A stretch of DNA of 39,169 bases from a virus: positions 1 to 39,169 of IMG/VR virus record IMGVR_UViG_3300031772_008746, one strand, 5' to 3'. Shown one piece after another: positions 33,783 to 38,985 of this stretch. A model generated the notes under the pieces. It worked only from the letters and a program-made list of their open reading frames with translations, ran no database searches and was not told where the DNA came from. Position numbers and translations under genes: made by a program. Every line of letters starts with the position of its first letter. Positions within the stretch are counted from its first letter, which is position 1.

Positions 33783-35693
33783 ATGTCGACATCGTTGCCT
33801 TCTCGACAAATATTTGCAGTCGACGTGCCTGAGGTCAAAAACTTCAAAGTCGTCTTCAAGTACAATTTTTTTACGCCTGACGAACAAGTCAATGAGCGTA
33901 GCGGCATTCCTAGAAAATTGATCTCTCGTTCAACTGGAGAGACTGATGATAAAACTGTCAAGTACTTCGAGTCTCGAGTTCCTCGTTACGTGTTGTTTTC
34001 CTGGAACAAATCAAAATTTGCTGATCCGGGCAATCTAGTTCTTGAAAAAGACATAATTGCTCATGCTCACAAGACTCATCCGGTCAGTACGTTGATAGCT
34101 ACGCACTATGATAAAATTGTGATGGAAGATCACTTTTCTGATTTCAATTATGTGGCTGTCACGTTTCACGATGGTGACATCGACACAAAGATCTACAATT
34201 TGATTTCCGGAAGCAGCGTTCAGCGAAATTTGGTCTCATCAATGGATCCCCATGCTGTTGCAGTTGACTTGAACAATCAGACTCCTGAAAACGTTGACAT
34301 GTCAGTCTTGGATCATGGTTCTGCCGGGAAAAGTGCCTCAGGCAGACCTCTATATCCAAGAGATAAAAAGACCGCCGCAGTTCCCGGATCTGCATCTGGT
34401 CAAGAACACCACGAACAATTTCATGATAGTCACTTTGATGCAATGAAGGGTGTCGTCGTCACTTCTCAAATCAATTCAAAGTTTTTTCATGACGTGACAA
34501 GTAGAATGATTCAAGATCCACATGCATCAGATCCAACAGAACTTTTGACACTCAATCAGCATGCACACAAGTTGTCACTTTCAACTAAACGCCGGCTCAA
34601 TTCGGCTATTAACGAAAATGAATTCAAGACTGTGGCTCCTCACATTCATCACCGTGTCGATCGAACATCACATCATCAGCAGCGCCATGCGGCGGAGCTA
34701 GTCGGATATGTCATCGACAAGTATGCTGTCAACCCAAATGGAACGACCACACCTCTACACCCAATCATCATCGAGAATCCAGCTGCACACCAGGCGATCG
34801 ATTCATTCATCAAGTATGATCAAAATTACTTTTACACGATTAGAGCGATCGCCCGTTTTTATCTACCTGCAATCGACAAAGACTCTGGTGACGTCGCAAC
34901 GATTCAACTGTTGGTCAGTTCGCAACCATTTGCCAAACAACACGTGCGCGTTCATGATATGATCGCCCCACCGTCGCCAACTGACATCAATTTTAATTGG
35001 GACTATGAAAACAACAAGTTGGTAGTCCACTGGACGTTCCCACCGAATCCTCAGCGCGACATCAAGAGATTCCAGGTCTTCCGACGGGCATCGATTAATC
35101 ATCCTTTTGAATTGATCAAGGAATACAATTTTGACGATTCTGCCATCAAAATGGACGATGGGGAACATCCGGATCCAAAATTGATAATGAATTCTTTGAA
35201 CCCAGCTTCTTTCTATGTTGATGATGATTTTGTGAAAGACTCAAAATACATCTACACTGTGTGTTGCATTGATGCTCATGGTCTGACATCGTGTTATGGA
35301 GCGCAGTACGAACTGTCGTTCGACAGATTTAAGAATCAACTAGTCAAGCGTCTGGTGAGTCACAGCGGCGCGCCCAAACCTTACCCAAATCTGTACTTGC
35401 CCGGTGAAGGTTTCGTTGATGTGGCCCGTGTCAGTGGTCCGAGTTCAAAAAAGTTTCGGGTCTTCTTTACGCCGCAGTACTATTTGCTCGAAGACAACAA
35501 AAAATTGACGCACTCGATCCTGTCGACGAATCAATCAGGGGGCTACTATAAATTGCAGTTCATCAACACTGACAATCAAAAATCCGATTCATTGACAATC
35601 AAGATTGACGACAAGATTAAAGTAGCGGAACCCAAATTGGCCTATCCGGTGGCAAATCTCAAGCTCAACAAGAAAAGTTTGAGTGGAATCTGA
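33783..35693 (+). CDS. Virion structural protein with fibronectin-III-like domain (636 aa)
   Basis: It begins one base after the previous TAA. The N-terminal 110 residues show beta-strand sequence (VPRYVLFSWNKSKF). Residues about 395-505 resemble a fibronectin type III domain: APPSPTDINFNWDYENNKL, then VHWTFPPNPQRDIKRFQVFR and SKYIYTVCCIDAHGL. Fn3-like domains are common in phage tail and fibre proteins and may bind carbohydrate surfaces. His-rich stretches (HIHHRVDRTSHHQQRH) lie near 290-305. The gene is followed by a decayed mobile-element relic. Confidence 0.75.
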   Translation: MSTSLPSRQIFAVDVPEVKNFKVVFKYNFFTPDEQVNERSGIPRKLISRSTGETDDKTVKYFESRVPRYVLFSWNKSKFADPGNLVLEKDIIAHAHKTHPVSTLIATHYDKIVMEDHFSDFNYVAVTFHDGDIDTKIYNLISGSSVQRNLVSSMDPHAVAVDLNNQTPENVDMSVLDHGSAGKSASGRPLYPRDKKTAAVPGSASGQEHHEQFHDSHFDAMKGVVVTSQINSKFFHDVTSRMIQDPHASDPTELLTLNQHAHKLSLSTKRRLNSAINENEFKTVAPHIHHRVDRTSHHQQRHAAELVGYVIDKYAVNPNGTTTPLHPIIIENPAAHQAIDSFIKYDQNYFYTIRAIARFYLPAIDKDSGDVATIQLLVSSQPFAKQHVRVHDMIAPPSPTDINFNWDYENNKLVVHWTFPPNPQRDIKRFQVFRRASINHPFELIKEYNFDDSAIKMDDGEHPDPKLIMNSLNPASFYVDDDFVKDSKYIYTVCCIDAHGLTSCYGAQYELSFDRFKNQLVKRLVSHSGAPKPYPNLYLPGEGFVDVARVSGPSSKKFRVFFTPQYYLLEDNKKLTHSILSTNQSGGYYKLQFINTDNQKSDSLTIKIDDKIKVAEPKLAYPVANLKLNKKSLSGI

Positions 35694-35896
35694 CTCGTTT
35701 ACCTTGACGCCCAAGATGATAGGATGTTCTTGGTTACACAGACGCTGGTGGAAGTCCAAGCGAAGAGAATATGTAAGGTAGAACAATCATGATCGGGTAC
35801 AGAGTTCGCAACGTTTTGAATGGTCGTCGACATACTCACAAGGGATACTTGTGGCAGTATACTAAAGAAAACAGTCATTCTGTAGAAAAGGGTTAA
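35694..35896 (+). pseudogene. Decayed NUMOD1-like (homing-endonuclease DNA-binding) relic
   Basis: The gap between two structural genes is not empty. A frame from ATG 35789 to TAA 35894-35896 reads MIGYRVRNVLNGRRHTHKGY then LWQY. NVLNGRRHTHKGYLWQY fits the NUMOD1/IENR1 repeat of intron and homing endonucleases, which ends L-x-G-(K/R)-x-x-T-x-x-G-Y-x-W-x-Y. The same frame upstream (GYTDAGGSPSEENM) is interrupted by TAA, TGA and TAG, so the 5' part is degraded. No catalytic domain remains. The relic stop is followed directly by the Shine-Dalgarno and ATC of the next gene. Confidence 0.55.
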
Positions 35897-35907
35897 GGTG
35901 TAACATC
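35895..35907 (+). promoter_or_regulatory. Shine-Dalgarno and presumed ATC start of the 238-aa structural gene
   Basis: AAGG (35895-35898), six nt, then ATC (35905-35907) where ATG is expected. No ATG, GTG or TTG start lies in frame between the upstream in-frame stop and GTG 35962. Confidence 0.5.
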
Positions 35908-36621
35908 GGTTTTCTAGACCACTCAACTAACAATATCATCCTCGATGCAGTTCTGACTGACGTGGGTCGTCAGTTCTTGGCCCGCAATGACGGTAGCTTT
36001 TCGATCCATAAGTTTGGTCTCGGCGACGACGAGGTCAATTACAAGATCATTGCGAAGTACGGGCGAACCGTGGGCCGTGAAAAGATCGAGAAAAATACGC
36101 CCATCTTTGAGGCCTTGACCAACCAGAGCCACTCGCAAAAGTACAAATTGATCAGTATTTCCAATCCTCATCTATTGCGTTTGCCGAACCTCAACTTGTC
36201 AGGTGATGCCAACGTCGATGGTCTCAATGCAATCGTCACCCTAGGTAGAAATCGACAGAAGACTTCGACTGTGACGTTCGAACAGACGATTCAGAATGAA
36301 ACCTCGATCGACGTGGAGCTCCGTGATCAGACATTCATTGTCGAAGTGCCGAATCTCTTCTGTCACATTCTCCGCCACACGCCAGAAAATGTCGATGGAC
36401 AACAAAAGGCAACATACATTATCACACGATCTCCTTCTGAAAATGCATTTGGAGGTTCGTCTGTTCAATTCACCCTGGCCGTAAAGTCGTTGACCGATAC
36501 TTTGTTTGCGGTCTATGGATCGACGGCCAACAAGTCGAAGATCAAGGTTTTCATAAAGGTCACAGGTGTCCAGTCTGGTGCCGTCAAAGACATCACTGTT
36601 GTCATCGATAAGAACCTGTGA
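35905..36621 (+). CDS. Virion structural protein (238 aa), apparent ATC start
   Basis: Read from ATC 35905, the N-terminus is (I/M)GFLDHSTNNIILDAV then LTDVGRQFLARNDGS. It lines up with the MAGILDSKT...LDSIITLEGRKQF N-terminus of the 349-residue gene at 26166, including its start. From memory, this conserved family (FLDHSTNN, GDDEVNY, YGRTVGREKIEKNTPIFEAL) begins MGFLDHS. The only conventional start, GTG 35962, would delete 19 conserved residues and has no Shine-Dalgarno. So the true start is most likely ATC, possibly used by coupling from the relic stop 8 nt upstream. The remaining protein is a beta-rich structural type. Confidence 0.75.
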   Translation: MGFLDHSTNNIILDAVLTDVGRQFLARNDGSFSIHKFGLGDDEVNYKIIAKYGRTVGREKIEKNTPIFEALTNQSHSQKYKLISISNPHLLRLPNLNLSGDANVDGLNAIVTLGRNRQKTSTVTFEQTIQNETSIDVELRDQTFIVEVPNLFCHILRHTPENVDGQQKATYIITRSPSENAFGGSSVQFTLAVKSLTDTLFAVYGSTANKSKIKVFIKVTGVQSGAVKDITVVIDKNL

Positions 36622-36628
36622 GTGAACT

Positions 36629-36817
36629 ATGAATAAACTCATCAAAGAAGCACAAATTTTCATCAAAGATTACATTGATGATCCTGCTCTTGAAGCAGAA
36701 CTTCGTATGATCGCGTACGAAACTGGACAAAACGTTGATCACCTCAAGCGTCGACTTTTGGGAAAAGCAAAGTTTACGTCTTTCAAAGAAGTGTTACCAT
36801 GTATTCGTGTACACTGA
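36629..36817 (+). CDS. Small hypothetical protein beside the homing endonuclease (62 aa)
   Basis: Starts 7 nt after the structural gene. It is helical and charged (DDPALEAELRMIAYETGQ, NVDHLKRRLLGKAKF). Its tail TSFKEVLP resembles the FKEILP start of the structural gene at 37699, both as protein and in DNA (13 of 18 bases). It may have arrived with the endonuclease or be a remnant of the displaced gene start. Function is not recognised. Confidence 0.5.
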   Translation: MNKLIKEAQIFIKDYIDDPALEAELRMIAYETGQNVDHLKRRLLGKAKFTSFKEVLPCIRVH

Positions 36818-36836
36818 AACCACAGAAGAGCGTTTT

Positions 36837-37694
36837 ATGAACAGGCGTTGGAATACCGAATCCGTGCGACACAAGGATGTCTACAAGTGTGACGAGTGCG
36901 GATCTGTGTTTCAAGGGCCATACAGGGCAGCTCACGCGACATCTGGGGCACTCACGTTCTGTGGCAGTACATGCAACAAAAGATCTAGATCGTCCGGTGT
37001 GTTGGCCGAGCAATGGAGACGAACGAAGCTCGAGCGCTACGGTGTTGAACATTCATCACAGGTTCCCGGTGCTTCCAACAAGATGTTGGCCTCTCGTGTT
37101 GAAAGGTACGGAACGACCGCACCGGTGCATCACCATCCTGAAATTCACAAAAAGTGGGCCAATACGATGCAACACCGTCACGGGGCCCAACATCCCCTGC
37201 AGGCACCGGGACCCAAGGCCAAACGGTTGGCAACGGTCAAAGAAAAGTTTGGGATGGATCCACTGGCGATGCCCGAAAACAGGAAACACCTCAGCGAGGC
37301 GGGACAGAAGGGATATCGAACGACAGCAAAACGCATTGGATCTTGGATCCTTTCGAAACCTGAAATCGACATGGTGAAATTTCTTCGTGATCGATACGGT
37401 GACGTTGATCAACAGGCTGAAGTTGATGCACCTGTAGGAAAGAGATATTTCATCGATGCATATGTCAAATCGCTTAACACGTACGTACAGCTTGATGGGG
37501 AATTTTGGCACGGTCTAGACAAACCATATGATCAGCTGCATGAAAATGGTAAGAAAGCATATGATCATGATCGGATTCAAGATACATGGTTCCTTTCTTT
37601 ACACAAGACGCTAATTAGAATCACAGACAAAGAGTTCCTCGCGTGTCAGAAGAGTGGTGACTTTTCTAACATCGTTCGCAAACTCGGAGGGTGA
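36837..37694 (+). CDS. Vsr/PD-(D/E)XK-type homing endonuclease
   Basis: A 285-residue protein from ATG 36837. The N-terminus has a zinc knuckle, Cys18-x2-Cys21 and Cys42-x3-Cys46. Then come four repeats of a (K/R)-x-(K/E)-(R/K)-(Y/F/H)-G unit (64-70 LERYGVE, 88-92 VERYG, 111-116 MQHRHG, 134-140 VKEKFGM), a DNA-binding arrangement seen in phage homing endonucleases. The catalytic domain shows Glu175 in KPEIDMVKFL, FIDAYVK with Asp207, VQLDGEFWHG with Asp220/Glu222, and LHKTLIRITDKEF. Vsr-like homing endonucleases make the double-strand break that drives gene spread. An upstream frame from 36735 is a shadow. It ends inside the Shine-Dalgarno region of the next gene. Confidence 0.85.
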   Translation: MNRRWNTESVRHKDVYKCDECGSVFQGPYRAAHATSGALTFCGSTCNKRSRSSGVLAEQWRRTKLERYGVEHSSQVPGASNKMLASRVERYGTTAPVHHHPEIHKKWANTMQHRHGAQHPLQAPGPKAKRLATVKEKFGMDPLAMPENRKHLSEAGQKGYRTTAKRIGSWILSKPEIDMVKFLRDRYGDVDQQAEVDAPVGKRYFIDAYVKSLNTYVQLDGEFWHGLDKPYDQLHENGKKAYDHDRIQDTWFLSLHKTLIRITDKEFLACQKSGDFSNIVRKLGG

Positions 37695-37701
37695 AAACAT
37701 C
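37686..37701 (+). promoter_or_regulatory. Shine-Dalgarno GGAGG and presumed ATC start of the 428-aa structural gene
   Basis: GGAGG (37686-37690), eight nt, then ATC (37699-37701). The endonuclease TGA is at 37692-37694, four bases before the ATC, favouring termination-reinitiation coupling. Confidence 0.55.
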
Positions 37702-38985
37702 GCAATATTTAAAGAAATACTCCCAAGCGACATCAAGTCTGCACGAAGTTTCCTCAACCAGTTGATCGATGTCCTGCAAGAGGACGTCAGCGGCTCGACG
37801 TCGCGGCGTAAGTACCAAGTCTTCGTCACAGGTGGTATCGGGCCAGGAGTGACCAGTTCGTTGTTTCAGACTGTCTATGATCAGGATTTCACGCTGCAGA
37901 CAGCCAATGCTGTCTTTGATATGACTGTCGGCTTGCAACCTGGAGGTGTCACAGAATTGTCCAGTCAATCAGGGACTGATTCTGCGGGTAAAGAATTGTT
38001 TCCTAGTTCTTCTTTGATGGCCCGTGAGAAGCTTGACATCTACCGTCAGTTTGCTCAGGCTCTCCTTGGTGATGCTTCACTGAAATTTGCGGCCCCCCTG
38101 GATTCAATCACCACCACTGACACGATTGACGTGGGTCTGTTCATTGCCTTCAAACGTTTGTTTGCTCGCGATCAGATCAAACGTGAGTCGTTCGCCATGA
38201 GGTTCTTTCAGACAGCTTCCGCTGTTGCCAAGGGTCCACCGGGCAGTTCAATTGACGTGCCTCCTCATACCAATGGGTACACTGATGCCTACGGTCAGTT
38301 CAATCTCAACAGTACCTCTGTATCAGGATCATCGATTTACACTGACATCGGTGCCTCGACCAACAAGTTGTCGACGTTCGGTGGCCAGGTCGGTAATGTC
38401 GTCGACGCCGCGAATACCAACAGGACAGTTGGATTGATGTTCTATGACCGCGGGATCTTGGTGCTTGACATGGCTAAGGTCACTTCAGGTTCACAGTTCA
38501 TGTCTGGAAACATCGATGCAATGCATCCTCTGGGGACCCAGGTCCTGGGCAATCCCGGGACGGAGACTCCCTTCAAGTCGAATTTCATTCCTGATTTTGT
38601 GATGTCAGCCTCGATTGACAACATCGTTGACCACATCGCGGCTGCCCGATTTGGTTCAGGCTCGCAGTCCGCGATGACGTTTCAGAACGTGACCAACATC
38701 AATTCAACATTGATCTTCTGCAGGGCCTCGGCAGACGAGTTCAACTACTCTGCTAATCCGACGTTCACTGATGCCCAAAATCGGATCGTCGTCATCGACG
38801 CGGGCCAAGAAGATACGCAGACGTCCTTCACTTTCATCACAAGCGTGGGTCTGTACGATGCCAATGATAACTTGTTGGCGGTGGCTAAGTTGAGCCGACC
38901 TGTAGAAAAGAGCAGTGAAAGAGATCTGACGTTGCGTGTGAGACTTGACTTCTTAAAAGTTTTGATCGAACCGACACTTCAGTAG
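37699..38985 (+). CDS. Virion structural protein (428 aa), apparent ATC start
   Basis: Read from ATC 37699 the protein begins (I/M)AIFKEILPSDIKS and then ARSFLNQLIDVLQEDVSG, RRKYQVFVTGGIGPGVTSSL and VYDQDFTLQTANAVFDM. From memory these segments are highly conserved in large marine myoviruses, and the family usually starts a few residues before FKEILPSD. A GTG at 37654 is in frame but lies in the endonuclease tail, lacks a Shine-Dalgarno and would add 15 unrelated residues. GGAGG 8 nt before the ATC supports initiation there. The rest has beta-rich repeats, and NTNRTVGLMFYDRGILVLDM looks like a structural sandwich. Tail or baseplate role likely. Confidence 0.8.
   Translation: MAIFKEILPSDIKSARSFLNQLIDVLQEDVSGSTSRRKYQVFVTGGIGPGVTSSLFQTVYDQDFTLQTANAVFDMTVGLQPGGVTELSSQSGTDSAGKELFPSSSLMAREKLDIYRQFAQALLGDASLKFAAPLDSITTTDTIDVGLFIAFKRLFARDQIKRESFAMRFFQTASAVAKGPPGSSIDVPPHTNGYTDAYGQFNLNSTSVSGSSIYTDIGASTNKLSTFGGQVGNVVDAANTNRTVGLMFYDRGILVLDMAKVTSGSQFMSGNIDAMHPLGTQVLGNPGTETPFKSNFIPDFVMSASIDNIVDHIAAARFGSGSQSAMTFQNVTNINSTLIFCRASADEFNYSANPTFTDAQNRIVVIDAGQEDTQTSFTFITSVGLYDANDNLLAVAKLSRPVEKSSERDLTLRVRLDFLKVLIEPTLQ

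Follow-up and report, generated by a model that had tools for sequence, protein, structure and literature searches.

Probable near-cognate start codons beside homing endonuclease insertions at two conserved late phage genes

Two neighbouring late genes in a stretch of viral DNA, IMG/VR record IMGVR_UViG_3300031772_008746 (positions 1 to 39,169; hereafter the window, 39,169 nucleotides (nt) in length), begin with ATC, and each directly follows the DNA of a homing endonuclease. These genes, gene 1 (P0001) and gene 2 (P0003), belong to a block of conserved late genes that forms the end of the window. Among their homologues, codons one base away from ATG recur at the same two starts. We propose that near-cognate start codons are found at endonuclease insertions because ATG is avoided there, mainly for the reason that its loss would destroy the endonuclease target, and we put the probability of this whole explanation at about one half. 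In a wider form, in which two unrelated families of homing endonuclease drive repeated near-cognate replacement of the start codon in conserved phage genes, whether to blank their own target or to tie the gene to ribosomes that exit the endonuclease frame, the proposal earns slightly more of our confidence.

At gene 1, the stop codon of an endonuclease relic (TAA, 35894-35896) is followed by the 8 nt GGTGTAAC and then by ATC at 35905, with AAGG 6 nt upstream of the codon. At gene 2, the TGA of endonuclease P0005 (37692-37694) is followed by AAAC (4 nt) and by ATC at 37699, with GGAGG(G) at 37686-37691. A sequence-only reading of this DNA had reported ATC at both conserved starts, each adjoining endonuclease DNA and lying 4-8 nt past an endonuclease or relic stop codon, and direct inspection of the sequence bore this out. 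It had also regarded conventional upstream starts as absent or implausible. Indeed, the gene 1 frame of the window contains no ATG, GTG or TTG between the last in-frame stop codon and the ATC, and the gene 2 frame contains two GTG codons, 45 and 42 nt upstream and inside the endonuclease gene, neither of which has a Shine-Dalgarno sequence (0.4 and -1.0 kcal/mol). Conservation begins one codon after the odd codon in both proteins (xA[TI][FY]KEILPSDIK in gene 2, xGFLDHSTNN in gene 1). Since homologues start at precisely these codons, nearly always with ATG, the proposed N-termini were placed correctly. Furthermore, a like change recurs in 11 other gene 2 junctions and seven other gene 1 junctions, so the ATC codons reflect neither chance nor error; random error had already been judged unlikely from the two loci alone.

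We retrieved homologues from IMG/VR using both proteins, alignments of them and the endonuclease, and removed duplicate junctions; individual relatives are given by handles such as L005. Among the 125 deduplicated gene 1 starts, ATG was found 111 times, GTG five times, TTG once, ATC seven times and ATA once. For gene 2, where the window was counted once and three rows are alignment artefacts, the corresponding counts were 106 ATG, 15 GTG, three TTG, six ATC, five ACG and one ATT. The odd codons differ from ATG in the second or third base, never in the first. Relatives free of the element have ATG, and sometimes GTG or TTG, at the same base, in agreement with the prediction made from the window that relatives lacking the endonuclease would carry ATG there. 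We also screened 15 records (1.34 megabases) for other odd starts: 15 of the 314 open reading frame (ORF) starts that could be placed by at least two other records had no standard start within 10 codons, and 12 of these 15 were gene 1 or gene 2 junctions. Therefore, these phages are not generally odd-starting. The three remaining cases were rejected, two being shadow frames and one an N-terminal extension with its own ATG.

Every odd gene 2 start (12/12) lies behind a stop codon and exactly 4 nt, and 11 of the 12 follow an endonuclease, or the relic of one, belonging to the same clade as that of the window, defined here by at least 41% identity to P0005. P0005 matches Pfam PF24308 (DUF7487; E 1.5e-13) and a PHROG homing endonuclease (E 2.9e-8). 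Matches to the nuclease region are weak (MTES_1575 in L005, E 0.008, below the cut-off; DUF559 in L169, 0.087), and the gene 2 endonucleases have a conserved motif, D-G-x-[FY]-W-H-G. From the weak MTES_1575 match in L005, this DGxFWHG-type motif and the account of similar phage endonucleases in PMC12350094, we call the putative C-terminal nuclease region EDxHD/Vsr-like. The element is optional at a single site, with relatives found both with and without the insert. All of the window-clade endonucleases that we found stand before gene 2 and end in a stop codon exactly 4 nt from either ATC (window, L160, L161, L162) or ACG (L167, L168, L169, L170, L187), while relics or partial copies that end alike precede ACG in L004, ATC in L261 and ATT in L303. 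No gene 2 homologue with a standard start was found adjoining a window-clade endonuclease. With relics and part copies included, 11 of 11 window-clade junctions are non-standard, compared with 1 of the 62 other gene 2 rows (Fisher p 3e-12, for rows that are not independent). More distant endonucleases at the gene 2 site keep ATG or TTG (L014, L017, L018, L020).

In L266 (1927-2500), a GIY-YIG endonuclease ends in TAG AAAA ATC, the junction of the putative EDxHD-type elements in L160 and L161, as if one element had replaced the body of the other. In L003 (6001), a close sister of L005 (ACG with an endonuclease), there is no endonuclease and the gene 2 start is GTG, which may be a reversion to a standard codon once the endonuclease was lost.

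The 4-nt spacer before gene 2 exists in eight versions (AAAA, TCCC, AATC, GTTT, ACCA, CATC and GACA in relatives), and the codon that follows is only ATC, ACG or ATT. L004 (ACG) and L007 (ATC) have different codons behind the common junction GATTGGAGGGGTAATCCC, as do L169 (ACG) and L303 (ATT) behind nearly identical junctions. Thus, it appears that the codon keeps changing among near-cognates, ATG never being seen. The likeness of the two junctions in the window (AACATCG), to which the sequence-only reading had drawn attention, breaks down in relatives and is a coincidence, because the endonuclease families differ. A shared insertion boundary, which had been offered as one explanation, is likewise unsupported: the gene 2 element is putatively EDxHD/Vsr-like and the gene 1 element is a GIY-YIG/NUMOD relic, and the junctions of relatives diverge freely save for the Shine-Dalgarno sequence, the spacing and the start codon.

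The relic before gene 1 in the window retains a NUMOD-like motif only (I-HmuI NUMOD-like match, E 1.8e-4, below the curated cut-off), and similar relics and full endonucleases occupy this position in L081, L003, L005 and L085. GIY-YIG and NUMOD domains were identified in the gene 1 elements of L085 (GIY-YIG 6.5e-8, NUMOD1 3.4e-5) and L075 (GIY-YIG 2.7e-9). An odd gene 1 codon stands behind a full GIY-YIG endonuclease in L014/L085 (ATA) and L075 (ATC), and behind deleted or frameshifted remains in L003, L005, L006 and L168, which share GAGGTGTAACATCGG where the window has AAGGTGTAACATCGG. A distant relative, L147/L148, has gene 1 starting with ATC behind a GAGGTG Shine-Dalgarno sequence, with no recognisable endonuclease upstream; it carries at most a scar and is therefore one gene 1 case without a visible element.

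In protein trees from which the start codon was left out, the odd rows (8 of 124 for gene 1 and 12 of 73 for gene 2; an earlier tree had 72 rows, not including the window) are scattered, requiring at least eight changes at gene 1 and at least nine at gene 2. When well-supported branches alone are counted, four and three changes, respectively, are forced. Near relatives differ, for example L160/L161 (ATC) from L016 (ATG), L005 (ACG) from L003 (GTG), and the window from L001. The choice between ATC and ACG tracks the kinship of the endonucleases, as would be expected of a unit spreading by homing.

The best reading of these junctions is that near-cognate initiation is real and that, at gene 2, it is helped by a strong Shine-Dalgarno sequence within the last codons of the endonuclease. 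The Shine-Dalgarno sequences of odd-start gene 2 average -9.6 kcal/mol, against -4.8 kcal/mol in relatives with a standard start (p 5e-8, again for rows that are not independent), and GGAGG is kept in the element even though the encoded residues differ (GG or EG). A tendency for weaker start codons to be accompanied by stronger Shine-Dalgarno sequences is already known (PMC5622118). Between the last in-frame stop codon and the odd codon there is no ATG, GTG or TTG in gene 2 of L162, L169, L187, L266, L303 and L004, or in gene 1 of the window, L005, L014 and L147; some other gene 2 and gene 1 cases do have in-frame standard codons upstream. In many cases, then, a codon one base from ATG occupies the homologous start without a standard alternative, and from such sequences we infer that initiation there uses formylmethionine (fMet). 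The idea of AUC initiation helped by translational coupling, as put forward in the sequence-only reading, is supported as regards AUC initiation, with coupling a live rival to other explanations.

We saw nothing among the predicted anticodons of the phage transfer RNAs (tRNAs) that explains the pattern. Five related records do contain a tRNA-like gene, or a tandem pair, set apart from the tRNA array and with an odd anticodon loop, the anticodon being reported as CUA, two-base or four-base (Table 1). The records behind L001 and L168, which are large phages, have arrays of approximately 50-60 predicted tRNA genes, including in the former a predicted tRNA with a UUA anticodon.

We envisage the following sequence of events. 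Two adjacent late genes would receive insertions of free-standing homing endonuclease genes, from two unrelated families, immediately 5' of their start codons, where the ATG and the conserved first codons most likely form part of the endonuclease recognition site. Because the element sits entirely 5' of the start codon, its insertion would not in itself disrupt the portion of the site that follows. Substitution of the second or third base of the ATG may then protect the carrier and also, against circulating endonucleases, later relics; the protein would be spared, since Met is still incorporated at a near-cognate start. Carriers and relics would thus come to have a start codon one base off ATG (ATC, ACG, ATT or ATA), at which fMet-tRNA would still start translation; the element's final codons would provide gene 2 with a strong and well-spaced Shine-Dalgarno sequence, and terminating ribosomes would halt a few nt away. 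In homing, the altered codon would move along with the element. GTG and TTG, in which bases 2 and 3 are unchanged, were not seen at these junctions, despite an expectation that they would translate better than the odd codons observed. That a start-codon change shields the site from the endonuclease, as the sequence-only reading had suggested, is plausible, and target destruction as the cause of ATG avoidance is less certain than initiation at the odd codon.

Several points weigh against this explanation. Initiation at AUC or ACG is inefficient in E. coli, and would be odd for a conserved late gene. The Shine-Dalgarno sequences of odd-start gene 1 are no stronger than those of relatives (-6.2 vs -6.5), and L014 (gene 1, ATA) is almost without one. 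Relics of dead endonucleases keep the odd codon (window gene 1, L003, L005, L006, L168 and L004), which a single mutation would return to ATG, and ATG or TTG is intact behind other endonucleases at these places (L014, L017, L018, L087). Carriers and non-carriers, compared over their first 15 codons, showed no clear DNA difference besides the start codon. Finally, free-standing endonucleases of the T4 type usually cut at least hundreds of bases from their own gene (PMC2988022).

An account based on expression is possible, and we hold it tentatively as the next to consider: the weak start would offset the very strong Shine-Dalgarno sequence of the element, or would need the ribosomes that finish the element frame. 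Under such a dependency, deleting the element would harm the phage and its retention would therefore be favoured, much as promoters embedded in T4 endonuclease genes have been argued to favour retention (PMC2988022). The constant spacing of stop codon, 4 nt and start, the strong Shine-Dalgarno sequence within the gene 2 element, the relic mini-ORFs open to the same stop codon (window gene 1, L003, L005), the odd codons retained by relics and the trend for weaker starts to go with stronger Shine-Dalgarno sequences (PMC5622118) are all in keeping with it. However, GTG or TTG would be an easy way to weaken a start and both are absent at these junctions, the frameshifted gene 1 relics of L006 and L168 still have ATC, L014 almost lacks a Shine-Dalgarno sequence, and L147 has no element frame ending nearby. 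Alternatively, the odd codon could be tolerated baggage, the start having mutated once or a few times per element and the altered end having spread by homing with no benefit. Although ATC or ACG tracks endonuclease relatedness and the scatter on the gene trees fits horizontal spread, we consider this unlikely, because the switches among ATC, ACG and ATT at otherwise alike junctions, the ATA and ATC beside a different endonuclease family, and the complete absence of ATG from window-clade junctions argue for repeated selection.

It is more doubtful still that the proteins start elsewhere, either from a standard codon further upstream, within the endonuclease gene, or through a frameshift or readthrough fusion. 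In-frame GTG or ATG codons do lie 39-45 nt upstream of gene 2 in the window, L160, L161, L167 and L168, but those at gene 2 have poor Shine-Dalgarno sequences, many cases have no upstream standard start at all, and a codon that was not a start should drift as the spacer does. At gene 2 the element is in frame +1, at gene 1 in other frames, and since the relative frames differ, one recoding event cannot explain all cases; a prfB-like frameshift fusion (GGG TGA) or readthrough was rejected because element and gene do not keep a constant relative frame. Very improbable is an endonuclease within a self-splicing intron, with the true ATG in an upstream exon. EDxHD/Vsr-like endonucleases are known in phage group I and II introns (PMC12350094), yet Rfam scans gave no intron match even at lax thresholds, and the endonuclease of L161 and L266 fills the interval between the two genes but for 6-7 nt behind gene 1 and 4 nt ahead of gene 2; these negative scans and the lack of room for intron RNA led us to exclude it. 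A candidate 5' exon ATG at 36629 was also discarded, as it is not conserved in relatives. Sequencing or assembly error deserves almost no credence, as the phenomenon recurs in many metagenome samples with different codons. Our preference remains target destruction.

The layout of the two genes and their elements is given in Table 1. The GTG of P0005 is its probable start by comparison with L005 and L007. A 62-residue ORF between gene 1 and the endonuclease has no significant Pfam match and was not seen in the insertions of L004, L005 and L007; its terminal FKEVLP is similar to the FKEILP found early in gene 2 and is possibly a remnant or due to chance. In cultured phages, only distant and partial homologues of gene 1 and gene 2 were found. 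The structure model of gene 2 (pLDDT 72) gave no significant match in Foldseek; in a second fold comparison the best match was 9f4a_Aa, from a phage baseplate cup/tail interface (Z 5.5 over 78 residues), and T4 gp6 scored Z 3.2. These matches are too weak to name gene 2 by its fold. In the gene 1 model, the N-terminal third is of low confidence and the matches are generic beta-sandwiches. L469, from a Halobacteriovorax metagenome-assembled genome, is the only bacterial-genome contig with a gene 2 relative, and is a possible hint of the host or a binning error.

Table 1. Positions of the two genes, their flanking elements and the odd-loop tRNA-like genes of related records
Feature	Record	Coordinates	Strand	Basis
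P0004, conserved gene 5' of gene 1	window	33783..35693	+	ORF list; relatives have homologues immediately before gene 1
35-codon open relic of a GIY-YIG/NUMOD homing endonuclease; stop TAA 35894-35896	window	35789..35896	+	I-HmuI NUMOD-like match
Gene 1 Shine-Dalgarno sequence AAGGTG (GAGGTG in four relatives)	window	35895..35900	+	sequence
Gene 1 (P0001), 238 codons, start ATC, conserved late protein	window	35905..36621	+	homologous starts
62-residue ORF between gene 1 and the endonuclease	window	36629..36817	+	ORF list
Free-standing homing endonuclease P0005, DUF7487 region and putative EDxHD/Vsr-like nuclease region; probable start GTG at 36807, stop TGA 37692-37694	window	36807..37694	+	Pfam, PHROG
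Gene 2 Shine-Dalgarno sequence GGAGGG, within the last codons of the endonuclease	window	37686..37691	+	sequence
Gene 2 (P0003), 428 codons, start ATC exactly 4 nt past the endonuclease stop	window	37699..38985	+	homologous starts
tRNA-like, odd anticodon loop	behind L001	228801-228949		
tRNA-like, odd anticodon loop	behind L168	51217-51369		
tRNA-like, odd anticodon loop	behind L161	95499-95647		
tRNA-like, odd anticodon loop	behind L064	96186		
tRNA-like, odd anticodon loop	behind L014	84719		

If our interpretation is correct, a selfish element and its host gene are linked at the level of the start codon. In bacteria and their phages, AUC, ACG, AUA and AUU starts are regarded as very rare, and genes such as gene 1 and gene 2 would be mis-annotated because common gene finders disallow such starts. 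Here, the odd starts appear repeatedly in conserved genes, and a clear associated cause can be tested. Their use would provide an example of a parasite taking over a start codon, and such junctions would be natural material in which to study the rescue of weak starts by Shine-Dalgarno strength and coupling.

Each of the ingredients is known, and their combination appears to be new; our literature search, which covered open-licence papers, returned no report linking homing endonucleases with replaced start codons. The free-standing seg and mob endonucleases of T4-like phages are similarly intronless and lie between phage genes, and some carry the promoter of the downstream gene (PMC2988022). 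However, the embedded element there is a promoter, and we found no replaced downstream start codon in that review. The EDxHD/Vsr-like endonucleases of phage introns (PMC12350094), with repeat DNA-binding domains and a C-terminal EDxHD/Vsr-like nuclease, have an architecture similar to that proposed for the gene 2 elements, whereas those described here are free-standing and have no intron. Natural genes that start beyond AUG, GUG and UUG include infC (AUU) and Streptomyces sigR (GTC; PMC5472188), but these are cellular genes under IF3-linked control, and in our phages the codon is tied to a mobile element and takes several forms. Finally, in the 'collaborative homing' of F-CphI in cyanophages (PMC6083498), the target in the carrier is likewise destroyed, so that a free-standing endonuclease spares it; there the site is destroyed by an intron, whereas here we propose that a one-base change in the start codon would suffice.

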